Below are positions 9,041 to 50,896 of a DNA stretch of 64,000 nt, piece after piece. Numbering within the stretch: position 1 is the stretch's first letter; each line of letters opens with the position of its first letter. The translations under genes and the position numbers were made by a program. Origin of the DNA: Hanleya hanleyi (lineage: Eukaryota > Mollusca > Polyplacophora > Lepidopleurida > Hanleyidae); the NCBI GenBank assembly GCA_036873755.1, contig JAVTVY010039336.1, forward strand, positions 91,901 through 155,900, read 5' to 3'. The notes under the pieces are model-generated. The model did no database searches. It was given only the letters and a program-made list of their open reading frames with translations, and was not told the DNA's origin.

Positions 9041-9059
9041 GATGAAAAGTGACTTGAAC

Positions 9060-9094: not shown

Positions 9095-9109
9095 AAAAAT
9101 GTCATCCGA

Positions 9110-10620: not shown

Positions 10621-10629
10621 AAATCTCTC

Positions 10630-10800
10630 TTTTTCAGTCAGAATAGCAATCATCTCATAATATTGCTCAACAATGTTCAAGCAAGAAATTTCCCGTAATA
10701 GAATGATTGAATTAAATGCCTTTTCAATCAAAATAACAATCATTTCATACTATCATGACTATTGCTGATCAACAATGTTCAAGCACTAAATTTCGGATAT
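10630..10800. repeat. Diverged tandem duplication, about 100 bp
   Basis: Two adjacent copies share TTTTCAGTCAGAATAGCAAT (variant TTTTCAATCAAAATAACAAT) and CAACAATGTTCAAGCA followed by AAATTTC. They lie directly left of element B. Confidence 0.6.
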
Positions 10801-10843
10801 AAATGGTATGATATAACTGAACCGATATGTAACTAATATATCG

Positions 10844-12777
10844 CAGGCCTCAATTTAAGGTGGTAACCTGTTTTCAGTTTGCCTGGAGGTTGCTATATGA
10901 GCGAGAGATCCTGAAGGATCTTGTCGCCCACCATTGTTCGACAATTGTAAGCTAATGACAAGAGGATCTTCTTGTCCCTTGTTACTAAGACGATTGAGTT
11001 GTAATTTTGTTTACAGAATTTCGAATCTGAGCGAAAAAGATCGAAAAACGGCCACTGGAAAACACCAAGATATAATGTTTCTAATATAAGTTTCACGAGT
11101 TTCAAGATTTCTAGAAACTGTACTTATGTCGGTTGTTATAGTACAAGAGAAATGAGCAAAGTTAGTATAAAAGTGAATGTACATGTACGGAGGATCATTC
11201 GTCTTCATTTTGCAGTATTTTTTTTTTGCACGTGTCATTATGGGTACTGGAAGCGAAGAAAAATCTTTTTGACACTTTGGCATACTTAAGATTTTATAAT
11301 TAGGAACGAATGCTAATTCTGTTCGGTTTACTGGACGAGTTTGAGATATCTCTTGTAAGATACCATGCTCGAAAATAGTAAGATGGTACAATACTTAGTA
11401 CTGAAGGGATCCGATCCGCGCAGTACAGTTGAAACTTCGAATTTGAAAGTGTCTGAATCCTGATTATCTCCCTTGGATCGAAACATGCAGTAGTCTACAG
11501 TTGTCGAGTTGTGACATTGTGTCAGAAGAGTGACGTCCCTTCATGTAGCTGACTCGCCGGCAGATGAAAGGGTGGGCCAATTCACTTGCAACTGCATGGA
11601 CTAAAGAAAACTGATTTAAAATCTGAAGAAATACATTGTAATTCCGAATTATTTGAACTCCTCGATATGGAAGGTGAAGATATGGATATTCTCTATAGTC
11701 AATATATAGAATATGCCCCACCGTTTGATCCGTCGACTCTTGTGATGCAACAACTGTCACAACTCAGGAATACCGTATTAATTGGATTTTCGAATCGGAC
11801 CAAAAAGGCATCTTGCACAACTAGGCCCAATGTGGGATCTTGCACAAGTGGGCCACAATGGGAATCTGTGTACCAAATTTGAGGAAGATCCACGCAGTAC
11901 TTCTTGAGAAATCACGATAAAGTTTCATTGGGAAATCCAAGATGGGCGCCTGGTGGCCATACTGGATTTTCGAGTCCGACCAGAAAAGGTATCTTACACA
12001 ACTAGGCGGCACGGGGAACCTGTGTACCAAATTTGACAAAGATCCATGTAGTAGTTCCTGAGAAATCGCAGTAGGCCTGATGGACATAGCGAATTTTGGA
12101 ATCGGAGCAGAAAAGGTATGTTGCACAACTGGACCACAAGGGCAACCTGTCTACCAAATTTGAGAAAGATCCAGGCAGTACTTTCTGAGAAATCACTATA
12201 ACAAAGTTTCATGGGGAAATCTCAGATGGCCGCCTGGTGGCCATATTGGATTTTCAATTCAACCCAAAAAGGTATCTTCCACAACTAGATCATAAGATGA
12301 ACCTGTGTACCAAATTTGAGAAAGATCCATGCAGTACTTCCTGAAAAATTGAGGTAACAAGGTTTCATGGGGAAATCCAAGATGGCTGCCTGGTGGCCAT
12401 ATTGGATTTTCGAATCGGACCAGAAAGGGTTTCTTGCACAACTAGACCCCGAGGGAAACCTGTGTACCAAATTTGAAAAAAGATCCATGCAGTAGTTCCT
12501 AAGAAATCGCGGTGACAAGGTTTCATGGGGAAATCCAAGATGGTTGCCTGGTGGCCATATTGGATTTTCGAATCGGGACCAGAAAAGGTTTTTTTGCACA
12601 ACTAGACCCCTAGGGGAACCTGTGTATCAAATTTGAAAAAGATCCATGCAGTAGTTCCTGAGAAATCGCGGTAACAAGGTTTCATGGGGAAATCCAAGAT
12701 GGCTGCCTGGTGGCCATATTAGAATTCATGGTAACCTGTTGAGAGGTTACCATCAGCACTCCTTAAATTGAGGCCTG
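10844..12777 (+). mobile_element. Composite element B, 1934 bp, with terminal inverted repeats and internal 155-bp array
   Basis: Perfect 17-bp inverted repeats CAGGCCTCAATTTAAGG end the element (10844-10860 and 12761-12777). Inside are a leader matching element A (10904-11781), about six array units (11782-12720) and a 3' hairpin (12728-12753). Imperfect direct repeats of about 33 bp containing GGTATGATATAACT flank it at 10805-10837 and 12784-12815. They begin 6-7 bp outside the inverted repeats, so they are probably not a simple target duplication. Array plus hairpin and inverted termini resembles Helentron-derived elements; no protein is encoded. Confidence 0.8.
12728..12753 (+). other. 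Subterminal hairpin of element B
   Basis: ATGGTAACCT pairs perfectly with AGGTTACCAT around the 6-nt loop GTTGAG. The left end of the element carries TGGTAACCTG right after its inverted repeat (10861-10870), so the hairpin arm is shared by both ends. Confidence 0.85.
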
Positions 12778-19389: not shown

Positions 19390-20347
19390 CCAACCCTCCT
19401 CCAATGAAACTGCAGAGGAGTTTGGTCAAATTTACATGAGCTTCATTTGTTAACTCAGGATTATGAAATCTTAGCTCTCTGTTTGAATGGAGCTTTTCTC
19501 AAAGAAGCAGATAAAAATAAATTTAAATTACGGCAATATACACCCTATCATTCCTGTGCTTTGCAAGAGCATGGAAAGGCTCCAGGCGGTTCTTCAATAC
19601 TTGTTAACATGGGTGTTTTGCATAATCCTACTGATTTGAAGACAGATTTACAGCTGTAGCAGTTCGACTTACTTTGGATTCTGTATTCACATTATGCGCG
19701 GTGTACATACCGTCATCTGGAGGTCTCTAGTGAACTTCAGAATCTTTACGATCAGCTCCCTAAACCTTGTTTACTGATGGGTGATTTTAACGACCGTAGT
19801 AACTTTGGGGATAAATAAGAGAGTTGTAAAGGAAAATTTCTTGAAGATTTTTATCAACTAATTCTTTGTGTATTTTTAATGATGGTTCTTACACACATTT
19901 TTCCACAGCTCATGGAAACTATTCAACTTTAAATATCTCACTTTGCGACCTTCCTATACTCGAATAATTTACTTGGTCTGTTCATGATGACCTTTGTGGA
20001 AGTGATCACTTTTCCACTGTTTTAAAGGCTGTTCATTCAGCTGATGACCCCCCTTTAACAAGGTATAATTCCAAGAAAGTAAATTGGTCAGAATTTGAAA
20101 AGATTTGTTCACAGGAACTACAAGGAGTTTCTTTTTCTGATGTTCCAGATCCTATACAGTTATTTTCAGATATGCTGGTAGAAATTGCCAACCAAACCAT
20201 TCCCACATCTTCAGGAGTTGCACATATTACGAAACCTTGGTTTAATGATGACCGCAAAGAAACAAGAAAATGCAGGAAGAAAGCTGAACGATATTTCCGC
20301 CGACATGCGAATTCTGGAAATTTGAAAGATCTCAGAGTTACAAGAGC
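19390..20347 (+). pseudogene. Jockey/CR1-like LINE ORF2, endonuclease part, decayed
   Basis: With frame changes the sequence reads through an APE-type endonuclease: a start resembling LQWNCRG, then ALCLNGAFLKEADKNKF where the family usually has a catalytic ET pair, AVYIPSSGG, LLMGDFNDRSNFGDK and later VHDDLCGSDHFSTVLK. After it come LTRYNSKKVNWSEFEKIC and KPWFNDDRKETRKCRKKAE, the linker to the reverse transcriptase. GDFN and SDH motifs are retained; several stops and frameshifts are present. The frame is cut at 20347 by the Harbinger-type insertion and resumes at 22337. Confidence 0.8.
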
Positions 20348-20350
20348 TAA

Positions 20351-22333
20351 GGGATCGTTTCCATTAATCGTTTTTTCTTCAGTCGCGATTTTTCTTCAAT
20401 TTTCTCGATTGAAAAACGATCAATCGCGAATCAGTCGCGAGGATATCGAGAAAAAAAATGAGAAAAAACGATTGAACCTTTTCTGGAAAAAACCATTCTC
20501 TCGCGATATCGTTTTTGAATCGTTTACCCATGCGCGATCCGTTCTTGATCGCGAATCTTCAATCGCGAGAGAATCGTTTTTTTCAAGGCGCGAGAGAATC
20601 GTGAGGCGGAGTGATATTTGAAACATAGGCCGTGTTGCCGTCGTACGCCGCTCTATCCGCGTACTGGGAACTACATGTAATGTTGATTGCGGATTTGTCG
20701 ATGGAAACACCTATATTACTATACTATACTGTATAAATGCGTAAGATAACCGAATAATATATATGATTCACGATCTATAGTCGCCTACAAGCCGAAGTAG
20801 GGCGTATGTTGGAAATATCTTTTCATATTCCTGTACCATGCTTCCTGTGACGTTCGCGCTCAGATTTACTCTGGCGAAGCGTGAATGACAAAATTACATG
20901 TTTATTCAATAATCGTGTGAGTCGACAATGTATTAATGATACAGGATGATAGTCACAATATCTTGTTTTGTAAATACCGGGTACAGGCCATAAGTGGATT
21001 TGAGTTCGTTGATTGCATTATCAGAATGATTACGGCACAGGCTTGATAGAGGTGTGAATGGGCGCATGGCGATAACCCAGAACAGCTTAGCCCTCCAGCC
21101 GAGAATTTCTAGGTTAATTAAGGTGAAAAATAGTGTAATTAAATATGTATATTTTGTTATAGTAAAACATACATTAGGAAAGGGTATCCATTCATGTTTT
21201 GGTACAGTTTTTAAACTATTGAGATGTGAATAAGTTCAAAAATCACCATCAAGTTAATTTTATTTATTATAAGAATATTCGCGGCAGTGATTTCATATTT
21301 ATATCAAATACATATCTTTTTGATTGAATCGCATATAACGGTTGGATTCGCATATGTACAATACTTTTTATTTTAATTTTATATTTTGATAAATGAACTG
21401 TGAATGATTCCAAAGGGAAGCTCAAGCCAAAAACCAACTGAATATTATATAATTTCATCTCTTACTGGATTAACCAGTTGTGAAAATTTGTACAAATAGC
21501 CCGCGCTATATATTAATAATTAAGTGCTTGCGAAGACTCAAAAGCCCCGTATGACAATGTTATATTCAATACAGCGCCATCTATCTACACAAGGAACATG
21601 GTGATCGTAGGACAAAAAACCACGCGTACAGCGAAAATCTGATGAATCAACTCAAAATTTCAGCCCGCACAGATGCCAAAAACGTTCACGAAAAATACTA
21701 CACAAGAAATCTGGAATAATGCCAGCTTTAAAATACCCAAAATAATAGACGAAATTGCAAGTGCAAATGACCCAATCTGACCATATCCGGGCCTGTGTCC
21801 CGTACAAAATATATGTAAATATGAAGTTATAATTATATGCCATTATTTCTATGTATATATATAGATATTTTTTTTCAATTTCTTTCAATATCCCCATCGT
21901 ATCTATATAACCGCCAACTGTACAGAAACACGCTATAGTTTTACACTAGGCAAAGAATGGAAAAGGAAGAAGAAAAAATGATCGAACTTTATATAGTCTG
22001 ACTGAAGTGTTAGAAACTCGAACGTGTATGCGGGTCAGTCAGGCTGAACCAATGGCGTACTACTTTCGGCTATAATCCTCAATCGTTTTTTTTCAATCGT
22101 TTATATTTTCTCGATTAAAAAGCGATTGAATCGCGATATCGCTTTTTATTCGCGAGAATTTTCTCGATTGAAAAACGATTGCCAACAGAAAAAAAACATT
22201 CGAACAGCGATCGCGAATGAATCGTTTATTTTGAAGAAAAAAAACCATTCCCTCGCGCCTTGGAAAATCGCGACTTCGAGAAAATTTGACGAAATAAACG
22301 ATTCATTCGCGAACGATAATTGGAAACGGTGCC
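20351..22333. mobile_element. Non-autonomous PIF/Harbinger-like transposon copy 1, 1983 bp
   Basis: Ends are GGGATCGTTTCCATTAATCG and, inward from the right, GGCACCGTTTCCAATTATCG. A 3-bp TAA target duplication flanks them (20348-20350 and 22334-22336), typical of PIF/Harbinger. Removing the insert joins LINE coding phrases (RVTRAKA with RTMKQNKRDSWKNYV, allowing a frameshift). About 270 bp at each end are packed with TCGCGA, AATCGTTT and AACGATT motifs. No transposase is present. A second copy in reverse orientation lies at 48205-53534. Confidence 0.88.
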
Positions 22334-22336
22334 TAA

Positions 22337-22790
22337 AGCTCAGTAGAACCATGAAACAGAATAAACGTGATTCTTGGAAAAATTATGTTCTAAGATCAAT
22401 ACATATACTCCTATAACAAACGTTTGGAAATATGATCCAAAGAATAAAAGATAAAGGCTCCCAAGTCCAGCGTTCAGCATCTCAACGATGGAAATCAGGT
22501 GATTACTGACTGAGTAGAAATTGCAAAAAAATTAGGCGAAACAATTGCCAAAAACTCTCCTTCAGAAAATTATGTACCTAAATTTCAATGTTTCCAAAAA
22601 AGAGAACAGAAAAATGAAATTCCCCTCCGGTAACCATGAAGGCTAACGCTATGTTTCCAATTGTGGAACTTCATGCTTCTCTCTCGAAAGCTAGCGATTC
22701 GGTTGCAGGCCCTGATAATATTAATTACCAACTTTTGAAACATCTACCTGAATCTTCTCGAGGCCAGTACCAAAGCCTGGCTGTAGCCAT
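22337..22790 (+). pseudogene. Jockey/CR1-like LINE ORF2, start of reverse transcriptase
   Basis: This continues the ORF2 remnant after the insertion: RTMKQNKRDSWKNYV, VWKYDPKNK in a shifted frame, and from 22636 FPIVELHASLSKASDSVAGP followed by DNINYQLLKHLPESS. The last phrase matches the family's first reverse transcriptase motif (GPD.I.Y..L+HLP). Several stops and frameshifts occur. The palm domain does not follow; similarity ends near 22790. Confidence 0.75.
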
Positions 22791-24080
22791 ACAGACCATG
22801 GTAATTGCTATAGTTACATATATGCAGTCTATAATCTTTTTTAATGTTCCGCGATACTTATACATCTATTTCTCGTTCATAATCTATATTTCAAATTCAC
22901 CAAAATTACATTTTATGCTTTACGATTGTTCACTTATAATGGTATCGTTGTACATATATATTTGCATGTTCTCATGTCTTGTCAATTCATAATAATTGCC
23001 TAAGAATTCACTGTATGTGTTCAACAACATTACATTTTATTCCTCTCATGTTTATTAATATTAGACATATTGGATTGCTGCAAAATTCTCCTGTTTTATC
23101 AGTTGTAATTACAATTTTTAATCACAATTTGTATATGTGTTATATCTCACTGTGGAATGTAGACTGACAAAGAGTATTTTATTGCCAGCTGTCATGTTTC
23201 GTCATGACGACACTTGAACTAAATGAAAGTACATCCCGCTGTGATAATGGCACAATATTATCACTTCGCTGGTTCCTGGCAGACAGGTGACGGTCTCGGA
23301 CAGGAGTGCAGAGAGAATATATTCATAAATATGGACAAGGAAGAACAAACCTTCAATTTCCAGTGACTACATTTCTCGTATACAGCTTACGAGTTAAACC
23401 CATAATCAAAGATAGAATTTCACCAAAACCGACTGTTTCCATATCCCTGTCTCCACTAATAGGCTTAAAACCCTCGAACAGCAGAGAAGGTAATACCATT
23501 CCTTTACTCTGGAAAAAAGGAAAAATATGGCATCTGTGGCATAACTGTGAACCCTAATTGTCTTAAATTATGAAACTTATATATTTCAGAATATGTTATT
23601 AATATGTCATTCGTTTGCCAGTGACGAATATAATTAGTTTAATTTGCGGCCGAATATAATTAGTTTAATTTGCGACTGTTGATGTGGAGATTATGGAGAA
23701 ATTACACGGCCCGAGGCACCGGCTATAGCTAACTCGGAAGATGTGATGGCAGATCAGTTCAAATATCTAAACTCATATTATGTTGAAGGATGAGCATCGA
23801 AGGCCTTTGAAGGAGTAAACGACCCAACATGGGTTAAACGTGATAAATGTATAATTCCCGTCATGGCTTGAATTTCCTATCAATACAACATATTTTTACA
23901 TATTTATTAATCAAATACCATGTGCATACAGTGGGTCTCCGGGAGTAACAGTCCACCAGCAAAATCATACCGTACACAGTATAAAAATTGGGGAGCTATG
24001 TAAAAGGTGGGAACAGTTGACGACGCCTGTTGAGTTTTGGTCTGGTACATGGCTATTGAGGATAGCATTTAAGCGTGACA
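22791..24080. other. Intergenic sequence with one dispersed repeat
   Basis: No genes are visible. At 23685-23800 (GATGTGGAGATTATGGAG, CACGGCCCGAGGCACCG, CAGATCAGTTCAAA) a repeat is shared with 55760-55900 and 57860-57960. AATATAATTAGTTTAATTTG is directly repeated at about 23627-23670. Confidence 0.5.
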
Positions 24081-26935: not shown

Positions 26936-29900
26936 TTATATTCATATCAAATATGGTGCGGCTTGTGTTCAATGAGGCTTGGAATGTTTATACAATTAAT
27001 TTTCTTCTCACTGTTACACAATGAAATTAAGTTTCAAATCATTTGATTCATCTCTTCGATGTAGATTGTTATGTTTCATTCGAGGAAATAATTTTAAAAG
27101 ATACATATGACATTTTCTAACTTTATGGCTGGAGTTGTATCACAAAGAGCAAACGGCGTAAACATGCTTTTCCATCTCACCCACGCTCATATAGGTATCG
27201 ATCGTTCCTTTTCGAGGACACACTAACTGATGACCTAGTTCAGAGCCAGTGATTTGCTCGCCCTCCACCCCATTGGATATCAGTTGATTTCTAGGGAAAT
27301 AAACATTACACATGTAATGACCACCTGCCGAGTGATACATGTGTGAATCGGTCAGACATTTCCAAGGATGCCAAATTCTAACTTAAAACAACCATGCCGG
27401 ATTTCATTGCTTCACTGAGAATAATTGGACCTAACTTTTACAAAGCCTGCAGCTCCCAATAGCTCCTGGATCTAGAACACATAAATGAAGGGACCTAGTT
27501 TATCGGTGCTATGGCAAAAATATCATGTAGAATGGGGTTGTGTGGATAATATCCTTGGAAGTTGAAGTCCTGCTGCATGCTTCACAAACATCATCAAAAG
27601 TGAAAATAATCTCCCTTGACCAGGTAAGGACTTGAATGTGTGTCTAAAAAGATTTAGCTTCTAGAAACAGACTTCATTTCAAATTTTAATTCCAATTCTG
27701 CTACATGTACATGTATAAAATACATACAGAATGAACTGCATACATAATAACACAAAGAACAGGTATATGTATCTCATTACATTCTTATTCAAAGATCAAT
27801 ACCTGGGTAATATTACAACAATACCATGGCGTTATATATTGTTATGATTGACTTAACTTTAGCTGCTGAAGATATTTCTAATTTGAGATCAATGAACAAT
27901 CATACTAGATTTCATAACTTCATTTATGTTCACAATAAGCAACATAATCGAGATTAGCAGTTAATTGTAGACAAAAATACCCATGAATATATGTTACCAT
28001 GATTCAGTCATGATATTACCTGTAATATATTGATGTCGACAAGGTATAAACATAATTATTTGATAGTATTACTAATTGTATGTTGTTTATGATTAACATG
28101 AACTTTTTATTTGCTGCGTGGAATTCAGTCATTTGTTCCATAGGGGCAATATTCTCATCAGTCATCACCATTCAATGTGAATGTGATACATGTACAAGTC
28201 CATGGTCATTGATACAGCAAGGTGAAGGCGAAGGTGACCTGTAACACCAGTATACAAAATTATACCGAGCGCATTGAATCCTCATCATATGATGTTGAGA
28301 CAGATCAGAACGAAGTGTCGGTAAAATCAGGTGTGTTTTGAAGAGCATTCTCTCATCAGTGATGATGCTATACTGTACACATACAAAATATGAAGTGTTG
28401 ATGTGTTGGGCCTATAGCACAAAATCACAAGCAAGTTGGTACAACAACTAGGCACACGGTGTCTCATTTCTGCCGCTAACGTGTCGATTTGGGTGAGGGC
28501 ATCCTCTCAGGGGGAGGTGGGGGTGGGATGGGGCCTAATGTCTCAAGCACTTTTCCAGGTTTTCCATCAATATACTCTATTCCATACCCCAATATTTCAA
28601 GCACGTCAAATCAAACAAAAATTATTTGCTGGGAATGTGACTTTCACATCCCTGTCTGGACATGCTAGTGAGGAACCCTCAATCCCAGATATGTTATTCA
28701 GTGATGTATATTCATATCAAATATGGTGCGGCTTGTGTTCAATGAGGCTTGGAATGTTTATACAATTAATTTTCTTCTCACTGTTACAAAATGAAATTAA
28801 GTTTCAAATCATTTGATTCATCTCTTCGATGTAGATTGTTATGTTTCATTCGAGGAAATAATTTTAAAAGACACATATGACATTTTCTAACTTTATGGCT
28901 GGAGTTGTATCACAAAGAGCAAACGGCGTAAACATGCTTTCCCATCTCACCCACGCTCATATAGGTATCGATCGTTCCTATTCGAGGACACACTAACTGA
29001 TGACCTAGTTCAGAGCCAGTGATTTGCTCGCCCTCCACCCCATTGGATATCGGTTGATTTCTAAGGAAATAAACATTACACATGTAATGACCACCTGCCG
29101 AGTGATACATGTGTGAATCCTTCAGACATTTCCAAGGATGCCAAATTCTAACTTAAAACAACCATGGCGGATTTCATTGCTTCACTGAGAATAATTGGAT
29201 CTAACTTTTACAAAGCCTGCAGCTCCCAATAGCTCCTGGATCTAGAACACATAAATGAAGGGACCTAGTTTATCGGTGCTATGGCAAAAATATCATGTAG
29301 AATGGGATTGTGTGGATAATATCCTTGGAAGTTGAAGTCCTGCTGCATGCTTCACAAACATCATCAAAAGTGAAAATTATCTCCCTTGACCAGGTAAGGA
29401 CTTGAATGTGTGTCTAAAATGATTTAGCTTCTAGAAACAGACTTCATTTCAAATTTTAATTCCAATTCTGCTACATGTACATGTATAAAATACATACAGA
29501 ATGAACTGCATACATAATAACACAAAGAACAGGTATATGTATCTCATTACATTCTTATTCAAAGATCAATACCTGGGTAATATTACAACAATACCATGGC
29601 GTTATATATTGTTATGATTGACTTAACTTTAGCTGCTGAAGATATTTCTAATTTGAGATCAATGAACAATCATACTAGATTTCATAACTTCATTTATGTT
29701 CACAATAAGCAACATAATCGAGATTAGCAAGTGAAGTTTTAAAACAAGTGAAGTTTTAAAACATAATATAATAAACAGCATGGGTCTTCTTCAGTTTATT
29801 GTAGACAAAAATACCCATGAATATATGTTACCATGATTCAGTCATGATATTACCTGTAATATATTGATGTCGACAAGGTATAAACATAATTATTTGATAG

Positions 29901-32478
29901 TATTACTAATTGTATGTTGTTTATGATTAACATGAACTTTTTATTTGCTGCGTGGAATTCAGTCATTTGTTCCATAGGGGCAATATTCTCATCAGTCATC
30001 ACCATTCAATGTGAATGTGATACATGTACAAGTCCATGGTCATTGATACAGTAAGGTGAAGGCGAAGGTGACCTGTAACACCAGTATACAAAATTATACC
30101 GAGCGCATTGAATCCTCATCATATGATGTTGAGACAGATCAGAACGAAGTGTCGGTAAAATCAGGTGTGTTTTGAAGAGCATTCTCTCATCAGTGATGAT
30201 GCTATACTGTACACATACAAAATATGAAGTGTTGATGTGTTGGGCCTATAGCACAAAATCACAAGCAAGTTGGTACAACAACTAGGCACACGGTGTCTCA
30301 TTTCTGCCGCTAACGTGTCGATTTGGGTGAGGGGATCCTCTCAGGGGGAGGTGGGGGTGGGATGGGGCCTAATGTCTCAAGCACTTTTCCAGGTTTTCCA
30401 TCAATATACTCTATTCCATACCCCAATATTTCAAGCACGTCAAATCAAACAAAAATTATTTGCTGGGAATGTGACTTTCACATCCCTGTCTGGACATGCT
30501 AGTGAGGAACCCTCAATCCCAGATTAATTACCATTGATGAAGCTAACGTCCAACAAATGCAAAATTGAGCTTGGCATCCGGCTGTATGTTATTCAGTGAT
30601 TTATATTCATATCAAATATGGTGCGGGTTGTGTTCAATGAGGCTTGGAATGTTTATACAATTAATTTTCTTCTCACTGTTACACAATGAAATTGAGTTTC
30701 AAATCATTTGATTCATCTCTTCGATGTAGATTGTTATGTTTCATTCGAGGAAATAATTTTAAAAGATGCATATGACATTTTCTAACTTTATGGCTGGAGT
30801 TGTATCACAAAGAGCAAACGGCGTAAACATGCTTTCCCATCTCACCCACGCTCATATAGGTATCGATCGTTCCTATTCGAGGACACACTAACTGATGACC
30901 TAGTTCAGAGCCAGTGATTTGCTCGCCCTCCACCCCATTGGATATCAGTTGATTTCTAAGGAAATAAACATTACACATGTAATGACCACCTGCCGAGTGA
31001 TACATGTGTGAATCGGTCAGACATTTCGAAGGATGCCAAATTCTAACTTAAAACAACCATGGCGGATTTCATTGCTTCACTGAGAATAATTGGATCTAAC
31101 TTTTACAAAGCCTGCAGCTCCCAATAGCTCCTGGATCTAGAACACATAAATGAAGGGACCTAGTTTATCGGTGCTATGGCAAAAATATCATGTAGAATGG
31201 GATTGTGTGGATAATATCCTTGGAAGTTGAAGTCATGCTGCATGCTTCACAAACATCATCAAAAGTGAAAATAATCTCCCTTGACCAGGTAAGGACTTGA
31301 ATGTGTGTCTAAAATGATTTAGCTTCTAGAAACAGACTTCATTTCAAATTTTAATTCCAATTCTGCTACATGTACATGTATAAAATACATACAGAATGAA
31401 CTGCATACATAATAACACGAAGAACAGGTATATGTATCTCATTACATTCTTATTCAAAGATCAATACCTGGGTAATATTACAACAATACCATGGCGTTAT
31501 ATATTGTTATGATTGACTTAACTTTAGCTGCTGAAGATATTTCTAATTTGAGATCAATGAACAATCATACTAGATTTCATAACTTCATTTATGCTCACAA
31601 TAAGCAACATAATCGAGATTAGCAAGTGAAGTTTTAAAACATAATATAATAAACAGCATGGGTCTTCTTCAGTTTATTGTAGACAAAAATACCCATGAAT
31701 ATATGTTACCATGATTCAGTCATGATATTACCTGTAATATATTGATGTCGACAAGGTATAAACATAATTATTTGATAGTATTACTAATTGTATGTTGTTT
31801 ATGATTAACATGAACTTTTTATTTGCTGCGTGGAATTCAGTCATTTGTTCCATAGGGGCAATATTCTCATCAGTCATCACCATTCAATGTGAATGTGATA
31901 CATGTACAAGTCCATGGTCATTGATACAGCAAGGTGAAGGCGAAGGTGACCTGTAACACCAGTATACAAAATTATACCGAGCGCATTGAATCCTCATCAT
32001 ATGATGTTGAGACAGATCAGAACGAAGTGTCGGTAAAATCAGGTGTGTTTTGAAGAGCATTCTCTCATCAGTGATGATGCTATACTGTACACATACAACA
32101 TATGAAGTGTTGATGTGTTGGGCCTATAGCACAAAATCACAAGCAAGTTGGTACAACAACTAGGCACACGGTGTCTCATTTCTGCCGCTAACGTGTCGAT
32201 TTGGGTGAGGGGATCCTCTCAGGGGGAGGTGGGGGTGGGATGGGGCCTAATGTCTCAAGCACTTTTCCAGGTTTTCCATCAATATACTCTATTCCATACC
32301 CCAATATTTCAAGCACGTCAAATCAAACAAAAATTATTTGCTGGGAATGTGACTTTCACATCCCTGTCTGGACATGCTAGTGAGGAACCCTCAATCCCAG
32401 ATTAATTACCATTGATGAAGCTAACGTCCAACAAATGCAAAATTGAGCTTGGCATCCGGCTGTATGTTATTCAGTGAT
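26936..32478 (+). repeat. Three tandem direct repeats of 1.77, 1.90 and 1.88 kb
   Basis: Units start at about 26936, 28708 and 30603 with ATATTCATATCAAATATGG and are nearly identical. Unit 1 lacks about 65 bp after CGAGATTAGCA and about 60 bp before the next unit. AAGTGAAGTTTTAAAAC occurs twice in unit 2 and once in unit 3. Each unit holds a minus-strand 66-codon frame starting MYHSAGGHYMCNVYF (27140-27340, 28910-29110, 30805-31005) and a plus-strand frame starting MVQQLGTRCLISAANV (28436, 30270, 32148). Differences among copies change amino acids as often as not, so coding is unsupported. Each unit ends with a G-quadruplex-type motif. Confidence 0.92.
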
Positions 32479-33710
32479 GTATTACGCTACGGACCCTGTT
32501 GCCTCGACGGAGGTCTTTGCGCTCATCCAGCGCTTGCTATATTTTGTATTGATATTTTTTCTCTACACTCTCCAAACCATTGTCATTGTACAAATTCAAA
32601 TGTAATCAGATCGGTTGGCTATACATCCCCTTTCATAATTTCCATTTAAACAAAATTTACTGTCTTTTTTCAACATTTTCAAAAATGGCCTAAAAGATAG
32701 TATGCGAGGGTCGAACTATGAAACTAGACTGAGCATCTCTAAAAAAAACGTCAATTAGAACGATTCTCTCAACAGAAACAGATATTTATTCTTAGCATTA
32801 TAGATCAACAATGTAGTAAGTGAAGTATTTATTAATCCGCAGAAAAGGAGGAATATTCCAATCAAACTATTATACCGTATAACGAAATAATATCCGCTGC
32901 CTTTATTTTGATGGTACCCTAGACTATTATTGATGCAAAATTGACCATTCAATCTTTAGTGACATCAGTTGAATATAAATATTGCACAATAATTTTTGCA
33001 ACAAGGCCAAATTACATACGCTAGCGTAGTCTATTGGTATACGACTGGCCGTATAAAAGTATAGGGCTCTGAATTCTGAGAAGATTTGTAACACTTGTAT
33101 CACGAATTTGACTAAGATTTTATTAAATCGGCCAAATATAACTTTCTTACACTGTAAACCGAATATATTTTGAAACACGACTTCATGGTTTGACAAACCC
33201 ATGTTTGGGTATTTCAAAACAATACAGCCTGGTTTTAAAACTTGTGTATTTCGAAACACAGATGTTTGGTTTTCCGACAACTTGATTGTTTACAAGCCAC
33301 CGCTTCTGGGATTTGGAACATTATGGTTGGGTTCGAAGATAGCTAAGATTCATAGCGTTTTCCTTCCCTCACCGCTATGCCGACGACAAATACATTTACC
33401 TGGTGGTAACTCGAATATCTCCATGGCGAGTTATTATTACCTTTGCGCCCTATTGGATCTTCATTAACTTGAGAAAATGGGCCGCCATGAATAAAATTAC
33501 AGAAATGGCAGACTAAATGGCTATTCGTCGGTCAAAAATTAATTACAGACGTTAAAATTATCCATATGGAGCATCAAAATCACCTGAAATCTAGGGGCAC
33601 AGGGCGGGTGATAAATGGCAGGACAAAGTCTCGTCTGCATGTACAATCGAATAAACAAATAGATTGGATACCCTGCAAGTAGGTACTTCAGTTTATTTCA
33701 AAGGTAGAAA

Positions 33711-35822: not shown

Positions 35823-38291
35823 AAAGAAGAAACAATCTGCAGGATCGGAGTGCACATTTGATCCTGGTCCTTCACAATCTGGCATTGAAGAAGAAGAGCC
35901 TGTGGGTATGAGTTCTCTTACACCTGAAGACGCAGCTGAGGAATCGGGGCAGGGTCTCAATGCAGAGAGCTCTTATAATGAGGACTACTGTACACTGGAT
36001 AATTCAGAGCATTTCGAAGCTGTTGGTTTGGAATAGAATTCCACACCCTGTGATATTTCAGACATCAGCGATATGGATCTCTCAACTGATGATGAAACCG
36101 ACAGTTCTTCCAGCGATTCTGAAGAACCGGATGGTAATATTCAGCCTGTTCAGAGCTGTGCAACCAATTATCGTAAGGATGACCCACCATTCTATGTTAT
36201 ACAAAACACTTCTGATCTGTGGAGTAGTTGACTGACCAAAAGCCAGCACCACCTTGCTGTCAGTGCATTTGCCTGTCGACATAATCTGTCTGATACTGCA
36301 ATAACACATTTACTGGAACTGGTTCAGTTGCATCTACCAACACGAAATTTTGGTGAAAGCAATGTGAAAACGGTCAAGAAGCTCTGTAGGTTTGATAGCA
36401 ATTGTCTAAAATATCATTATTACTGTGAAGACTGCAAGAAACTCTTTTCTGTAGAGTGTGATTCCTATAAAACCCCAGGCTGTAATGGTAGGAAATCAGA
36501 TTCTAGATGCAGAAGATATTTCTTGACAAGCAACCTGAATATGCAGATACGAGAAGTTTTGGAACGGGATGGCATTTGGCAAGCCATACAAGACTCCTCC
36601 ATCTGTAATGAAACATGTGCCAGTACTTGTATTTCAGATGTCAAAACTGGACTTGCCTACAAGAAATTGAAGGCGACTGGGAGATTTCTACATAAGAGAA
36701 ATAACATTACCCTTTCCTTATTCACGGATGGAGTACCTCTGTTCAAAAGCTCCAGTGTCGCACTTTGGCCGGTTTATCTTCTGATAAATGAAATCCCACC
36801 TTGGGAAAGATTTCTGCGCAAAAACATGCTGCTTTGGGGTGTCTGGCAGGGAGTCGGAAAGCCCAGTATGAACATGTTCTTACGACTACTTATTATGGAT
36901 CTTCTGCATCTTTATGACAGAGGAGTTTGCATTACCATCAATGATGAATTACTCCAGGTGAAAGCAATGCTTCTTGTTGCTACCATGGACTTGCCGGCAT
37001 GAGCAGGTGTTCTCAATATGACTCGGCATAATGGAACAAATGGCTGCCGCTATTGCATGGAGCCAGGGGAGAGTGTACCAAGTAGTAAAGGGCACTGCCG
37101 AGCTTACCCAGTGAGAGAACAAAAAACAGATGAAAAGACACATGCAACTGCAATAGCAAGTGCTGCAAAAGCCCGTAAAGATGGAAAGAGAACGGATGGT
37201 TTTTTGGGTGAGAGTGTTTTACTCTATCTACCATATTTTTCCCTTACTGAAAGCATCATGGTGGATTACATGCATGGTACATGTATTCTGCTTGGCATCA
37301 CTAAGAAGTTTCTAGAACTCTGGTTTGACACCAAATACTCTACGGAGCCTTACAACATCAGCCAGCATATCAAAGAAATTGATGAACAGCTCAAAAACAT
37401 CCACCCACCATACATGATTCACAGACATCCACGGATACTGACTAAAACTTACCAGCACTGGAAAGCATCAGAGCTCAGGAACTGGCTGCTTTGCTACTCC
37501 ATTCCCTGTTTACTTGGGCGTCTTCCAGATGTGTATTTGACACACTTCAGCTGTCTGGTTGAGGCCACATACAATCTCCTTGGTGAAGGGATGTCTTCAG
37601 AAGATCTGAGTCGAGCAGATACTCTCGTGGAGAAATTTGTCAAGAACGTACAAACTATGTATCATTTGAGGTGCATGGGTATCAACGTGCACAACCTGAC
37701 CCATTTGGTGCAATGCGTCAAATTATGTGGACCATTGTCGGGATTCTCATGCTTCGCATTTGAATCATTCAATGGAGAATTAAAGAGATCCATCCATGGA
37801 ACTGGAAATGTTTGCAAACAAATGTTCTGGGCGCTTCAAGCCCAGAAGCGAGTCGAGCAAAAGGCTAAGGGAATACCAGAAGTTGATGGGAAAACGTTCT
37901 TAAAAAGCATGATTGGGGAATCTAGTCAGCTGAAGTCAGAAGCCTATCAATGCTACGTTGGCAAGGTCAACCCATTGTGCACCACTTTCTCCACTGCACT
38001 GAAATCACCGTTACTCGAGGTAGCAGGAACAGATGAAGAACCTCGCTTCATGTGGACAACGAAAATATGAAGGAATGGTTTTCTTATGTATAGTTTATCC
38101 AATAGAGTGAAAAAGCAGAATTCACACACAATTGCACTTGAAAATGCCACTGATAACCGAGCAATTGAAGTCCAGATGTATTTGATCAAAACAGATTCAA
38201 GGAAAGTGTTTGCTTTTGGCCAACCACTGATGGCGACAAGTTCTATACTACCCAGACGTCTTCCACATCTGAGAGAATATAGTTACACTGG
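35823..38291 (+). pseudogene. EnSpm/CACTA TNP2-like transposase, main exon with four in-frame stops
   Basis: One frame stays open for about 820 codons apart from stops at 36034 (TAG), 36229, 37000 and 38068 (all TGA); there is no frameshift. The acceptor is at 35821-35822. It has an acidic N-part, a Cys-rich module (YYCEDCKKLF...C), the catalytic region LFTDGVPLFKSS with D at 36727, a second Cys motif GCRYCMEPGE, VDYMHGTCILLG with D at 37264 and FAFESFNGELKRSIHGTG with E at 37762. That order matches TNP2-type transposases, which cut element ends by an RNase H-fold DDE mechanism. A donor GTAGGA follows 38291. All four stops are one C-to-T change from CGA or CAG. Confidence 0.85.
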
Positions 38292-41201: not shown

Positions 41202-41682
41202 CTTGTGAACGTCTCAGAAGACTACATCACAGAACATAATCATTGTGTACAACCTGCTTATTACCGTGTACAGTGTATACGTGTCTGGAGAATCTCGAAG
41301 AATGGAATAGTACTGTGCGATTTAGGTATCTTTATATACCAAATCAATAAGACTGAGCATTCTACGTTATGTGGAGACATTTGCGTTCACGTCACCATCC
41401 ACAAGATGGCTTGAATTCGTGTGATGCCATTAAGGCGAAGCGATATCCAATACTTTACCGTTTATTTTTCGGTCTTCATCCAGCAGAGAACAGACTCGAG
41501 AACAGATCAATTGTAAGTGTTGTACATTGTGTAGAACTGCATTTTGAACAGGTAGGACAGCACATGATTCAAAAATGGCAGGTTTAGTTTAGCTGATTGG
41601 CTGATGACATCTGGATTGGATTTCAGGGAATTCCCTCGTATACATGTAGTTGCCGAAAGTACAATGTAGGCTGAAATGGATA
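41202..41682. other. Sequence downstream of the CACTA gene
   Basis: No gene supported. Short overlapping frames at 41205-41587 have no family-like content. The 3' terminus of the CACTA element probably lies here but was not located. Confidence 0.4.
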
Positions 41683-41684
41683 TA

Positions 41685-42765
41685 CAGTGAAACCTGGATA
41701 CGCCGACCTTGCACGGGACCGAAGAAATATGTCGGTTTTGACAGTGTGTCGGTTTTCTCAGGGTTGATTATTTTGGCGTCTGGCTGAGAGACGACAACAA
41801 CAACAACAACGCTGAAGGAAGGAAGTCGGCTAATACGAGGACTGTGCTACAATACTTTTTATTCGACACACAAAATAAATAAATTATATGCAATACTATA
41901 AATGATGTTGATCATTTATATTTACAATGCACATTTATGATGAAAATATATTCAAGATGTTATGAAGGAAAGTGTAAAAGATGACGCAACTGCGGTACAA
42001 TGTAGGTCACGTAAGGTGTCGGGTCTATAGCACTCAAGTCAGCACAATGCAAAATATATAAATACGCCAATATAATAATATAATGAACTCAAATATTTGA
42101 ATACAGGTAATAATTGTCAGTTGTAGCACTTTTAGTGAAAAACCTATCGAGCGTGGATTGCTCTTTCCTGCTCTGCTCCTCCACGATCATATCCTCTGTT
42201 ATGCTCGTCATGGCCTGGATTTGCGAATTGCGGATTGGATTTACACCACTTGTACTCTCCCCTTTTCTTCCGAGTGTCTTGTCCGGCATTGCACGGAAAA
42301 ACAAACCAGTCTCGCCACAGTTAAATATGTCTGACGGGGAATAACCGGCCACGAGGGAGTCTGGGTTTTCACCAGTGTTATTGCAGGTGTTATTCCAGTA
42401 TTTATTATACTATAGTGAGTTAACGGGAGAAAGACAAACAAACACCTCGTGTAATTGACTGCTACATGTTTGGGCGTGCTGAATGTTTCAAGTGGATTAT
42501 AGCCGAGTCGACGGCCGACCGACCTCCTGGTGCGTGAGTTGTCAGTCGGTCGGATAGCATGCAGCGTCGGTGTTTTCAGGGCCAATTAACATTGTTTAGA
42601 TAGGTTTGCATTTAAAGACACGGTCGGTTCCGATGGGGACAGGTTCCGGTGTATTCAGTGTCTTGGTATAGGCAATTAACATTGAAGAAAAAGTGGACCG
42701 GAGAGTTTGGTCGGTGTTGACAAGGTTCCGGTGTTTCCAGTGGTCGGAGTTCTCAGGTTTCACTG
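41685..42765 (-). mobile_element. Tigger/pogo-derived element, 1081 bp, copy 1 (reverse)
   Basis: Ends read CAGTGAAACCTGGATACGCC and, inward from the right, CAGTGAAACCTGAGAACTCC, with TA target duplications at 41683-41684 and 42766-42767. It encodes a remnant Tigger transposase on the minus strand. It is nearly identical to the element at 42904-43984 (I found one difference near the outer end, TACGCC versus TACACC), has exactly the same length and lies in opposite orientation 138 bp away. Confidence 0.92.
42089..42352 (-). pseudogene. Internally deleted Tigger transposase, copy 1
   Basis: The frame contains GYSPSDIFNCGETGLFFRAM and PDKTLGRKGES, the region around the first catalytic aspartate/glutamate block of Tigger-type (pogo) DDE transposases; the family usually reads N.DETGL, here NCGETGL, so the aspartate of DET is replaced by glycine. 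It then jumps to a short C-terminal tail (QAMTSITEDMIVEEQSRKEQ). The catalytic core is deleted, so it cannot be an active transposase. Confidence 0.8.
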
Positions 42766-42903
42766 TACACGATATCAGGGTCAGTCTTACTGCGTATAGA
42801 TGACCCAGGTTGTATGTGGAGAGCAAATTAGTTAAAACCTGGTACTGTGGTTTCAATTATTCATTCTGGTGATGACAAATCTTGTTACCAATTTTTACAT
42901 GTA

Positions 42904-43984
42904 CAGTGAAACCTGAGAACTCCGACCACTGGAAACACCGGAACCTTGTCAACACCGACCAAACTCTCCGGTCCACTTTTTCTTCAATGTTAATTGCCTA
43001 TACCAAGACACTGAATACACCGGAACCTGTCCCCATCGGAACCGACCGTGTCTTTAAATGCAAACCTATCTAAACAATGTTAATTGGCCCTGAAAACACC
43101 GACGCTGCATGCTATCCGACCGACTGACAACTCACGCACCAGGAGGTCGGTCGGCCGTCGACTCGGCTATAATCCACTTGAAACATTCAGCACGCCCAAA
43201 CATGTAGCAGTCAATTACACGAGGTGTTTGTTTGTCTTTCTCCCGTTAACTCACTATAGTATAATAAATACTGGAATAACACCTGCAATAACACTGGTGA
43301 AAACCCAGACTCCCTCGTGGCCGGTTATTCCCCGTCAGACATATTTAACTGTGGCGAGACTGGTTTGTTTTTCCGTGCAATGCCGGACAAGACACTCGGA
43401 AGAAAAGGGGAGAGTACAAGTGGTGTAAATCCAATCCGCAATTCGCAAATCCAGGCCATGACGAGCATAACAGAGGATATGATCGTGGAGGAGCAGAGCA
43501 GGAAAGAGCAATCCACGCTCGATAGGTTTTTCACTAAAAGTGCTACAACTGACAATTATTACCTGTATTCAAATATTTGAGTTCATTATATTATTATATT
43601 GGCGTATTTATATATTTTGCATTGTGCTGACTTGAGTGCTATAGACCCGACACCTTACGTGACCTACATTGTACCGCAGTTGCGTCATCTTTTACACTTT
43701 CCTTCATAACATCTTGAATATATTTTCATCATAAATGTGCATTGTAAATATAAATGATCAACATCATTTATAGTATTGCATATAATTTATTTATTTTGTG
43801 TGTCGAATAAAAAGTATTGTAGCACAGTCCTCGTATTAGCCGACTTCCTTCCTTCAGCGTTGTTGTTGTTGTTGTCGTCTCTCAGCCAGACGCCAAAATA
43901 ATCAACCCTGAGAAAACCGACACACTGTCAAAACCGACATATTTCTTCGGTCCCGTGCAAGGTCGGTGTATCCAGGTTTCACTG
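42904..43984 (+). mobile_element. Tigger/pogo-derived element, 1081 bp, copy 2 (forward)
   Basis: Same ends and length as copy 1, with TA at 42902-42903 and 43985-43986. All three short frames within it are identical in translation to those of copy 1. Each copy has its own target duplication, so two insertions are more likely than one inverted duplication. Confidence 0.92.
43317..43580 (+). pseudogene. Internally deleted Tigger transposase, copy 2
   Basis: Translation is identical to the minus-strand frame at 42089-42352, with the same NCGETGL motif and the same internal deletion after GRKGES. The identity shows that the deletion preceded the spread of both copies. Confidence 0.8.
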
Positions 43985-43986
43985 TA

Positions 43987-45119
43987 CATGTTTGAACTAA
44001 TATAGGCAGGGCTAAGGATGATTCATATTTTGAATTTGAAATTTGGGCAGTTCAGTGTTTTATGTCGAGTTAACATACCACCGTCTGAGATTACTAAACT
44101 TGGTAAAATTCGTGAAAAAAAGATTGTGCAAGTCACTACTGAAATAAAAGTGTAATGCCCCTTACAATCACAATTAGAATTGTGGACAAATATAGTAAAC
44201 AATATAGTGTGGTACAAAAGCTATGCAAATAAGTTTAAGCTATAAGAATAAGGCTCAGATATGGTTCATGGTTCTCCAGAGAATTCTACATATATTCCTG
44301 CCAAATAGTCCGGTTGGTCATGTCAAAGATTGTAAATATCTGTGAACCAAATGCCAATCAATTTTAAATGAAAAAGGAAGAATTGTTGTCATTGGTTGAT
44401 ATATCTCAGAGAATAACAATAAACAGGTCACACACATTTTTCAGTGTTACTACTAGATGGTGTTTTAGCCGATTTACCATCTTGGTTCCCTAGATCAATA
44501 AATTTACTGCCCATTTTAAAACACAAGAAACAGTGCAACTTGCATATATTCTATTTTTTTTGTTGAAAATATTCTAAGTCCACACTCTTTTCTCTGAAAA
44601 ATTTTCTAAGTCCACAATTTCCATGCTTTTTCCAATTTTCATGCTGAAAAGTGTTGAATTCTCGTAATTCCATGGTGTCCATGGACATTGTCCATGCTTT
44701 CCAGGGTCCAGAATAATGTGACCATGGACATTGTCCATGGTTTCCAGCATAATTTCAGGGATTCCAACCTATTTCCAGGGTTTTTTAGTCAACCATGGAC
44801 ATAAACCCTGGAAATACTATAGCCGGGATACCATGGTATTTCCGATATACGTCACCAGCCTAGAAATCTGTACAAGAAAAAATAAGCCGCTGCAGTCGGA
44901 TATACCAGTAAGCTGATTTCAAACAAATGTCATGATTAAATGAGATTGAATAAAACGTCATGAGTTTAATATCTCACGTTCTATCCCGTATTCAAATTAT
45001 TTTGAATTATTAGCGACTGCATAGATTTTATGTTTGTAAGAGATTTTTTATCGGGCGACTACTTTGGAAGATCATTTTTATCGGGTGAGGGAGGATTACA
45101 TTTTCGGTTTCTTGATGGA
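43987..45119. other. Intergenic sequence with CCATGG-type palindromic repeats
   Basis: No gene is supported; 44000-44470 may be very decayed retroelement coding sequence. From about 44570 to 44850 phrases such as CCATGGACATTGTCCATGG (a perfect palindrome, 44722-44740), TTTCCAGGG and AAACCCTGGAAATAC recur in both orientations, forming a degenerate palindromic repeat. Confidence 0.5.
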
Positions 45120-48201: not shown

Positions 48202-48399
48202 TAAGGCAACGTTTCCAATTATCGTTCGCGAATGAATCGTTTATTTCGTCAAATTTTCTCGAAGTCGCGATTTCCAAGGCGCGAGGGAATCGTTTTATTT
48301 CTTGAAAATAAACGATTCATTCGCGATCGCTGTTCGAGTGGTTTTTACCCCTCAGCCTATTAGGCTGCGGGATTTTGTAGTTGGCATGTACGTCCGGTC

Positions 48400-49770
48400 G
48401 TACGGTCGTCCGGTCGTCAACAATTCTTGTGATCGGTTTAGAAACCGTTGCTTCTAGAGACTTCAAATTTGGTATACAGAATTGTTGGGTGGTCCAACAT
48501 AAGCCTATTGAATCTGGATCCGATTGGTTGGAAACTTTGGCGGCCATCTTTAATTTATTCGAAACCATCACAGCTTTCTCGTTACCAAGCTTTCTTTAGA
48601 ACAACTTACCCTAGGCACACCAAACTTGCCGTGCACATCCATATGCTCATGACTCAGAACCCTATTGAATCTGGACCCGATTGGGTGGAAACTTTGGCGG
48701 CCATCTTTAATTTATGCAAAACCATGAATCTTGTGTATCTCGGAAACCATTTTGCTGTTCAGTGTGAAACTTTGTAGAGATTATCGATACATCAAGAAAC
48801 CTTGAAGGAATGACCAAACCAGTTTTCCTGATTAGGTGAAAGCCTTGGTGGCCATCTTTAATTTATGCAGAATCTTTAATGATGTATTTCTTTGATACCA
48901 TTGAAGTGTTCTATACGAAACTTCTCTTTACCAAGCTTTCTTTAGAACGACTTACCCTAGGCACACCAAACTTGCCGTGCACATCCATATGCTCATGACC
49001 CAGAACCCTATTGAATCTGGACCCGATTGGGTGGAAACTTTGGCAGCCATCTTTAATTTATGCGAAACCATGAATCTTGTGTATTTCGGAAACCATTTTG
49101 CTGTTCAGTGTGAAACTTTGTAGAGATTATCGATACATCAAGAAACTTTGAAGGAATGACCAAACCAGTTTTCCTGATTAGGTGAAAGCCTTGGCGGCCA
49201 TCTTTAATTGATACAGAATCTTTAATGATGTATTCCTTTGATACCATTGAAGTGTTTTATACGAAACTTGGTATGCAGCATCGACGTATCAAGAGACTTG
49301 ACTTGCACTGAATCAATTCATCAATTCTTCTGAGAGGCGGGAAGGATGGCCGGCCATTTTTAATTTATGCAAAATCATTAATGATCTCTATCTCTGATAC
49401 TGTTTAAGTGCTCTATATAAAATTTGATAAATACCATCGATGCAGCAAGAGACTTATGATGAATGACAGAACTGGTTTCTCTGATTGGGTGGAAATCTTG
49501 GTGGCCATCTTTAATTTATGCAAAATCTTTAATGATATATATCTCGGATACCATTTAAATGTTCTATATGAAACTTGGGATACAGCATCGATGTATCAAG
49601 ACACTCGCAATGAAGATCAGTTCCTCTGAATGACCGGAAGGATAGGCGGCCATCTTTAATTTATGCAAATCATTAATGATCTCTCTCTGATACCGTTCAA
49701 GTGCTGGATGTAAAATTTGATATACATCATCAGTGCATAAAGAAACTTACGATGAATGACAGAACTGGTT
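48400..49770 (+). repeat. Tandem array, about 150-bp units
   Basis: Units share GGCGGCCATCTTTAATTTAT and GATACCATT-type phrases at about 48540, 48698, 48846, 49044, 49192, 49350, 49499 and 49646, most spacings 147-158 bp. A larger stretch of about 345 bp (48588 onward) is duplicated from about 48935, including CACCAAACTTGCCGTGCAC. The array is unrelated to the others except for period and the CCATCTT core. Confidence 0.88.
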
Positions 49771-49777
49771 TCTCTGA

Positions 49778-50077
49778 TTGAGCGGACTTTCTACATCACT
49801 AAGGAGCCACTGTTCAGCGACTAATGTTGTCATACTTGGAGACTTCAACAATGACTTTGCTGTCGACTCGGCTGAAACAACCAAGATAAACGACTTCTTC
49901 CAAGAGCATGGGCTCTTTCCCTTAATCCACACCCCAACTACAGATCTTAGGACAACCATTGACCAGATTTTCACCAATTTCAAACTCACAGATATACAAT
50001 TTGGTGTCCATGAAACATATTATTCATATCACAAGGCTGTTTGGATTGCCATCCATCCATCCTCATCCTCTGCTTGA
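49778..50077 (+). pseudogene. APE-type endonuclease fragment within the Helentron-like element
   Basis: The 99-codon frame contains VVILGDFNNDFAVDSAETTK, HGLFPLIHTPTTDLRTTIDQ, IFTNFK and FGVHETYYSYHKAVWIAI. These match the C-terminal half of the apurinic-like endonuclease found in non-LTR retrotransposons and, fused to Rep-helicase, in Helentrons. GDFN and IDQIFTN are intact, but the catalytic SDH is SYH. It starts abruptly at the array edge and lies about 380 bp from the 3' hairpin, where a Helentron's endonuclease domain would be. Capture of a LINE fragment is the alternative. Confidence 0.75.
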
Positions 50078-50465
50078 TCACAGATGGAAAGAGACAGACA
50101 ATCAACAGGTACACAGGGATTCATACAGTTATTGCTATCAAAGACTTTTATTATTGTTTAGATTATTATTAGGGTTCAAAGCCAAAATGGCTTGAAGCCT
50201 TTTGTTTTTGTTCAGAATATTTCTGTTCTTCCGCCATATTTTTCGCACGCCCTATGTCAAAATATTTATTATAATCCTTTAATGCATCCAACATCCCACA
50301 CTGAATTTATCATATTTTAATCTTTTACAAACCACTGCTAAAGCATCTTCTGCATTCAACCAAATCTCAGGCTTTTGCATATGCATTTTTCATTCATTGT
50401 GTACCAATATACACTGACTAAAACTGTCTGGCTGAGGGGTTGTTGCACCTTTTAGGTGCTGCCTC
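50078..50465 (+). other. 3' tail of the Helentron-like element
   Basis: Non-coding sequence after the endonuclease stop. It includes a short hairpin (AAGCCAAAATGGCTT, about 50173) and the subterminal GGCTGAGGGGT at 50431-50441 followed by the terminal hairpin at 50446-50460. Confidence 0.6.
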
Positions 50466-50896
50466 ATGTTTTTTCTGTTGGCAATCGTTTTTCAATCGAG
50501 AAAATTTTCGCGAATAAAAAGCGATATCGCGATTCAATCGTTTTTTAATCGAGAAAATATAAGCGATTGAAAAAAAAAACGATTGAGTATTATAGCCGAA
50601 AGTAGTACGACAAGGTTCAGCCTGACCCGCATACACGTTCGAGCTTCTATATCATAAACACTTCAGTCAGACTATGTAAGTTCGATAATTTTTTTCTTCT
50701 TCCTTTTCCATTCTTCTTTGCCTTGTGTAAAACTATAGCGTGTTTCAGTTCAGTTGGCGGTTATATAGATACGATGGGGATATTGAAAGAAATTGAAAAC
50801 AAAATTAGATATATATACATAGGAATAATGGTTGTGCATATAATTATAACTTCATATTTACATATATTTTGTAGGAGACACAGGCCCGGATATGGT

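Follow-up and report, generated by a model that had tools for sequence, protein, structure and literature searches.

HINEs, the non-autonomous Helentrons, are already known as deletion derivatives from a mite, Culex and Drosophila (PMC4067079). In the excerpted text of that account, they insert into T-rich targets without target duplication and carry a variable number of terminal T's; canonical Helitrons insert between A and T and have a CTAG 3' end. HINEs with a satellite core have been described from oyster, with autonomous elements that, in the part of the account cited here, could not be related to them (PMC7492417), and satellite-carrying Helitron/Helentron elements are reported, again from excerpts, as abundant in oyster genomes (PMC11136912). 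A model combining rolling-circle copying with truncation is outlined in the cited part of PMC12628747. In the literature searched, we found no later link between the satellite carriers of C. gigas and autonomous partners and, with subscription papers mostly outside the scope of the search, no satellite-carrying HINE with an endonuclease remnant.

We analysed a stretch of 64,000 nucleotides from Hanleya hanleyi (the window) and searched the genome, a 2.48-Gb assembly of 52,793 contigs. A DDX39B-like stretch of 47 aa (E 3.2e-20) is consistent with a eukaryote. The window contains a complete HINE that keeps half of a Helentron endonuclease (EN) beside a satellite array, inserted in a host repeat of which a second copy serves as empty site. 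The features are:

48347..50468, plus strand: complete HINE (non-autonomous Helentron), 2122 bp, in an oligo-T tract, delimited by a paralogous empty site
48347..48357, plus strand: 5' subterminal inverted repeat (subTIR) ACCCCTCAGCC, 11 bp, with its exact inverse at 50430-50440
48349..48371, plus strand: 5' hairpin, the subTIR folding onto the inner complementary repeat GGCTG
48387..48418, plus strand: degenerate GTCC/GTCG microsatellite of the left module, found by reading the sequence; its layout resembles those of L080 and C3479 (below)
48539..49786, plus strand: satellite array, eight units of ~150 bp with a 346-bp higher-order duplication, from TRF and unit-anchor matches
49787..50077, plus strand: remnant of a Helentron APE-type endonuclease, C-terminal half, stop codon included, from Pfam, tblastn and a tree
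50078..50429, plus strand: 3' untranslated part of the right module, ~350 bp
50430..50440, plus strand: 3' subTIR GGCTGAGGGGT, 11 bp, exact inverse of the 5' subTIR and present, bar one base, in the 3' ends of relatives
50445..50459, plus strand: 3' palindrome GCACC-TTTTA-GGTGC (GCACCTTTTAGGTGC), 15 nt, followed by TGCCTCATG and T's; the same palindrome occurs in L104, L105 and L106
48205..53534, minus strand: Harbinger-like host repeat that received the HINE, ends GGGATCGTTTCC / GGAAACG..GCC, 3-bp duplication TTA
21968..22334, minus strand: paralogous empty site, lying in another copy of the host repeat, from blast of the window against itself

In this self-comparison, the left flank (48204-48346) was 95% identical to 22334-22191 on the minus strand and the right flank (50469-50700) 89% identical to 22194-21968, which fixes the limits of the HINE at 48347-50468, with the flanking T's as the uncertainty. 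Joined together, the flanks form a single T tract, with 8 T in the empty and 11 T in the filled site plus one extra G. Judged by this one empty site, the HINE inserted into a T-rich target without target duplication. A canonical Helitron was ruled out by the T-T target and the CATG end. The second host-repeat copy (20351-22333) has the same ends, GGGATCGTTTCC, and a 3-bp duplication TAA; the repeat looks like a Harbinger-type element, the family name being our inference. This copy interrupts what by eye are LINE remains at ~19400-23000 (GDFN motif at 19780), and Pfam returned no LINE family for 19968-20621.

The exactly matching subTIRs near both ends lie in the 11-15 bp range of HINEs; as a control, inverted matches of ≥11 bp occurred in 45 of 20,000 random position pairs of the window. 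The 5' end (48342-48375) has a DNA fold of -8 kcal/mol (z -4.0), and the 3' end (50430-50470), with the short palindrome GCACCTTTTAGGTGC near its terminus, folds with z -3.4; in each case none of 200 shuffles equalled it. Rfam matched nothing in the window. A complete Rep/helicase/endonuclease is absent from the HINE, in which the longest listed open stretch is 111 aa (minimum 110 aa) and lies inside the array. A sequence-only reading of this locus had reported a 5' sequence with a hairpin, an inverted sequence followed by a GCACC/GGTGC hairpin near the 3' end, eight 150-bp units and an APE-type endonuclease fragment. Each of these is present; its element start, 48337, falls 10 bp outside the start given by the empty site.

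The unit anchor matched with ≤3 mismatches at 48539, 48696, 48847, 49042, 49193, 49349, 49500 and 49645, giving spacings of 157, 151, 195, 151, 156, 151 and 145, and TRF called the array as 346 bp x2 at 96% matches and 151 bp x3 at 73%. When the ~150-bp units were compared with other arrays of the window, 1 of 28 comparisons beat all 200 shuffles, and in two more 3/200 and 5/200 shuffles scored as well. We do not claim kinship with these arrays, one inspected pair resting on a 19-bp stretch of GGCGGCCATCTT type.

The window holds other elements that resemble HINEs. A second HINE-like 5' end (2986-3039, extending to ~5560; TTTTTACCCCTCGGCCATTTTGGCC..GTACGTCC) is 78% identical to the start of the main element over 54 bp, and three related stretches of 142-166 bp come after it; its hairpin is weaker, with 13/200 shuffles folding equally well. 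The EN loci L107 and L108 end in GGCCCGAGGGGT, resembling this variant. Another HINE-like element at 5563-9096 (minus strand), with a partial copy at 10904-12726, has a subTIR AGCCCACCATCTG with a hairpin, an ACGG microsatellite, a 157-bp array and a 3' palindrome AGATCCTTCAGGATCT. Its right module had no Pfam match, and readings of 2986-5560 and 5560-6435 with stops as X gave no Pfam family. Elsewhere we observed an inverted repeat at 41680-43989 (arms of 1090 bp, 99.8% identity, ~130 bp apart), tandem copies of ~1.8-1.9 kb each at 26936-32482 (96-99.6% identity) and, at 36232-38070, two adjoining frames resembling a broken transposase, the first matching PF02992 (Transposase_21, tnp2; E 2e-14) and the second without a Pfam match.

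The remnant lies in an open frame at 49778-50074 plus stop (99 aa). Its first ~9 bp are array sequence, so that the endonuclease proper begins near 49787. Frames of equal length occurred in 492 of 2000 first-order Markov controls, and the length alone is thus not unusual. Pfam matched the frame to PF14529 (E 1.1e-5; 25.7 bits, short of the cut-off of 27.4) and PF03372 (E 0.008). A protein database search found no homologue of the fragment, alone or as region 1259-1357 of the window read-through (P0001); viral_contigs gave no match to it; and Helentron Rep pieces matched nothing in viral_contigs and genome_contigs. A PDB sequence search returned three matches at E 0.68-1.2, none relevant, and a structure model reached pLDDT 55.

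Across the genome, the junction between array and EN (36 bases, ≤3 mismatches) occurred 448 times against 0 in the control; thus, one deletion product has multiplied with the family. The sequence-only reading had held that its claim would fail if copies with these termini never carried the endonuclease, and the junctions exclude that case. The right module (49787-50468; 682 bp comprising EN, 3' untranslated part and 3' end) matched over its whole length at 98-100% identity in all 40 scored places, the window's own copy included, these being the best 40 of 1894 candidates and a biased count because the query contains EN. For the 5' 401 bp, the best 40 of 3195 candidates were full matches. Of the 39 other 5'-end copies listed, EN follows on the same strand in at least 18, one (L004) has both ends and lacks EN, and 20 are left undecided by the listed matches. 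We also observed that the 5' 401 bp of the window (48337-48737) differ by 5-7% from the listed copies and the right module by only 1-2%.

An autonomous copy of the window's own family was not found among seven genome matches to a pattern designed for an EN start not preceded by satellite: six were junction-like apart from small changes, and L061, the remaining one, has no EN frame above 90 aa. A locus on C10871, with a 5' end at 19910 and EN at 29237, was not supported as a 10-kb autonomous copy, having no Rep-adjacent match. The nearest long-frame locus is on C26118, the source of L101 and L103, with an 827-aa frame that ends in EN and 57% amino acid identity to the remnant. About 3.5 kb upstream of this frame lies an open 266-aa segment within an 828-aa frame; its homologues in C12535, C40445 and C10965 stand directly behind Rep matches, with EN downstream. 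At this identity, the C26118 family is a sister family of the window's. The L101-type EN loci L104, L105 and L106 end in TGCTGAGGGGTCAAAGCACCTTTTAGGTGCAGCCTCATG plus T's, the window element in GGCTGAGGGGTTGTTGCACCTTTTAGGTGCTGCCTCATG; their 3' subTIR equals the window's bar one base and their palindrome is identical, as also in L103 up to the contig end. Over 160 columns, the EN DNA of these relatives is 72.5-74.4% identical to the window's.

A second relative, on C3479, is an element of 2.8 kb (9291 to 12119). Its 5' end, TTTTTACCCCTCAGCCCATCGGGCTGCGGGG, is 82% identical to the window's over 67 bp, and its array (156-bp units, 5.8 units at 97%) differs from the window's. A 451-aa frame opens in the last array unit; residues 57-218 are a helicase tail (47% to L055, E 2e-43) and the second part is a whole endonuclease (29% to L052, E 2e-25). 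A matching subTIR and an identical palindrome follow the frame. From this arrangement, we read C3479 as a satellite carrier one step earlier. The sequence-only reading had proposed a search for a longer element with the same ends; C3479 has matching ends and keeps the helicase tail and the whole endonuclease, and no autonomous copy of the window's own family was found among the seven matches above.

The C3479-type 5' end (25 bases, ≤2 mismatches) occurred 2502 times in the genome (control 0). Among 100 listed occurrences, 19 are followed on the same strand, within 3 kb, by an L101-type EN; the other 81 have no EN row within 3 kb, with one just beyond and one 9.3 kb away, and most of these probably lack L101-type EN because the EN list extends to weaker matches. 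A 213-aa frame in 22 of 150 L101-type EN rows indicates a further derivative family that keeps more EN than the window's. The 3' subTIR of this group was absent downstream of EN in eight Helentron loci (L047, L048, L050-L055), and its 5' subTIR from six upstream stretches of Helentron loci, L080 among them. Window-type ends thus belong to one Helentron group only, and the other long Helentron families examined, whose ends lack the window subTIR, were rejected as parent. In L080 (contig C17617) itself, at offset 706 on the minus strand, we observed T7, a hairpin GTCCTCC../GGAGGAC and then a CCGTCCGT microsatellite; this stretch lies upstream of a 2579-aa Helentron frame and has the left-module layout of satellite-carrying HINEs.

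Taken together, the window element is very probably an internal-deletion derivative of a Helentron with the ends ACCCCTCAGCC...GGCTGAGGGGT, the palindrome and CATG, a HINE with the array in the gap; it was presumably mobilized in trans and has reached at least 448 copies. The sequence-only reading had derived the array family directly from an autonomous Helentron by internal deletion. The Helentron type of the EN and C3479 bear this out for the Helentron kind; it does not extend to an immediate parent, because C26118, which comes nearest among the long-frame Helentrons, belongs to a sister family at 57% amino acid identity.

An alternative origin is a chimaera, with the ends from one Helentron family and the EN-bearing right module from another, joined when nested copies recombined. 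Between the two related carriers, the arrays are dissimilar (score 28, control maximum 43), so that parts have been exchanged or replaced over time; in the cited part of PMC7492417, oyster HINEs are described as unique combinations of flanks and repeats; and the 5' part of copies is further from the window (93-95%) than the right module (98-99%). Nevertheless, the window HINE and C3479 are alike at both 5' and 3' ends, and within the window element the two subTIRs are exact matches, which makes a chimaera improbable.

As a further alternative, the 99-codon frame might be retained because a useful product is made from it, such as a short DNA-binding or competitor peptide. A frame of at least 99 codons is present in all 150 listed rows, 148 of them without an inner stop, and another EN-bearing family has the 213-aa frames (22 of 150 rows). 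However, the rows are the best-scoring 150 of 2496 candidates and were selected by the search, frameshifted copies exist (L013-L016), and copies only a few percent diverged are expected to have open frames without selection. We consider a useful peptide very improbable.

The genome also contains the Helentrons with which the remnant can be compared. A PF14214 search gave 150 scored matches among 440 candidates, with frames up to 3096 aa, and 26 of 30 fetched loci carry the Helentron Rep signature RGSPHTH (...RVEFQQRGSPHTH), one with a stop just before the motif; an S-type Rep motif is diagnostic for Helentrons according to the excerpts of PMC4067079. In C3370 (3023 aa) and C19764 (2846 aa), a single open frame encodes the Rep match, helicase and EN; the stop comes no more than 8 residues after SYH, and the endonuclease is the protein end. 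Pfam, run on C19764 alone of the two, gave PF05970 (E 2.6e-22) and PF03372 (E 7e-8). The remnant is 30-31% identical to these two endonucleases. Using tblastn, it matched L101 at 57% over 94 aa (E 2e-37), L100 at 49% and L086 at 39%; in all, 23 of 32 Helentron-side loci were matched, 22 at E≤0.002 and the weakest at 0.077, with nine unmatched at E≤10. In the same database, none of eight LINE loci (L067-L074), by reading one I/Ingi-like group without CR1-type elements, was matched at E≤10.

In an endonuclease tree with 29 rows, the two HINE rows that represent the remnant formed a clade with L101, L104 and L105 at support 100/99, nested among the Helentron rows, while three LINE rows stood apart on a branch of length 4.15; the tree carries a long-branch warning, and 10 of its 26 inner branches are open, leaving the deeper forks unsure. 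Left out as near-copies, broken or cut were L049, L056, L081, L082, L084, L090-L094, L098, L102, L103, L106 and L108; the LINE loci L067, L069, L071, L072 and L074 were also left out. The tree proposed by the sequence-only reading, of this endonuclease with those of Helentrons and LINEs, thus places it with the endonucleases fused behind a PIF1 helicase; within the I/Ingi-like LINE sample, it was closest to no LINE of the genome and showed no grouping with a specific LINE family, the outcome that would have refuted that reading, nor did reverse transcriptase follow it.

The remnant has SYH where LINE rows have SDH, a variant common to the Helentron proteins in the frames of 2846 and 3023 aa. 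Decay of SDH to SYH was rejected, since long Helentron frames carry SYH too. We observed SYH in L047, L048, L053, L088, L089, L099, L101 and L104-L109, SFH in L086 and L100, and SNH in L050, L052 and L098; SDH is present in LINE rows and in other Helentrons, for example L051, L054 and L055. The chemistry of the endonuclease in the SYH, SFH and SNH lineages may be altered or lost.

That an unrelated HINE took up the endonuclease piece from a LINE, CR1-like or otherwise, deserves hardly any credence: although Helentron endonucleases are reported as closest to those of CR1 (PMC4067079, in the part cited) and PF14529 is named after LINE proteins, the remnant groups with Helentron endonucleases at 100/99, tblastn matched 23/32 Helentron-side and 0/8 LINE loci (a LINE sample without CR1-type), the stop stands where Helentron proteins end, with no run-on into reverse transcriptase, and the sister element on C3479 has the helicase tail in frame.

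Under internal deletion, the lost segment would start shortly after the 5' microsatellite and stop midway through the endonuclease domain encoded by the Rep/helicase/endonuclease gene, leaving the 5' end, the array, the last ~96 endonuclease codons, the 3' untranslated part and the 3' hairpin. The array would occupy the gap, having presumably formed at or entered the breakpoint. Rep and helicase of related Helentrons would mobilize the product in trans: following Helentron biology as given in the excerpts of PMC4067079, Rep would nick the ends, the 3' hairpin would end copying and T-T sites would be used. Rolling-circle copying would thereby insert it into oligo-T sites without target duplication, spreading it to at least 448 copies.

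In both related carriers, the left module precedes the array and the truncated gene follows it, with at most ~70 bp from array end to recognizable coding sequence. The arrays of these related carriers are themselves unrelated and each sits at the deletion point; this suggests that array and deletion arise together. We tentatively raise the idea, possible though on balance doubtful, that satellite birth is the loss of autonomy: faulty rolling-circle copying would delete a gene stretch and lay the array in the breakpoint, and the remnant length would record the deletion site. Carriers whose remnants differ in length allow the origin of transposon-borne satellites to be tested: array formation at deletion points predicts that in carriers with EN a truncated Helentron gene borders directly on the array.

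With autonomous Helentrons (Rep/helicase/endonuclease), the window element has the terminal layout and the C-terminal endonuclease in common, but Rep, helicase and the first endonuclease half are missing from it. We know of no coding remnant in the Pearl elements CvA, CvE and CvG of C. virginica, in contrast to the window element. These elements, named in PMC11136912, likewise have a satellite core between conserved ends. HINE-Mo of Metaseiulus occidentalis (Thomas et al. 2014, PMC4067079) also has subTIRs, a 3' palindrome and a T-rich target without duplication, and HINE-Mo elements are simple deletion derivatives of Helentrons, as the window element very probably is; they are described, in the cited part of that account, without coding capacity, whereas the window element keeps part of an endonuclease beside its satellite array. 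Cg_HINE of Crassostrea gigas likewise has subTIRs of 11-12 bp, a complementary inner repeat, a GTCY-type microsatellite, a satellite-like central array, a palindrome and an oligo-T target (PMC7492417, excerpts). Its right flank is a 60-bp consensus straight after the array, as against a right module of ~680 bp with EN in the window element. In the excerpts of that study, Cg_HINE could be linked to no autonomous partner, whereas the carrier in H. hanleyi is tied to Helentrons via its EN module: it retains a portion of the enzyme gene that marks the parent kind, and the link can therefore be read from the sequence.
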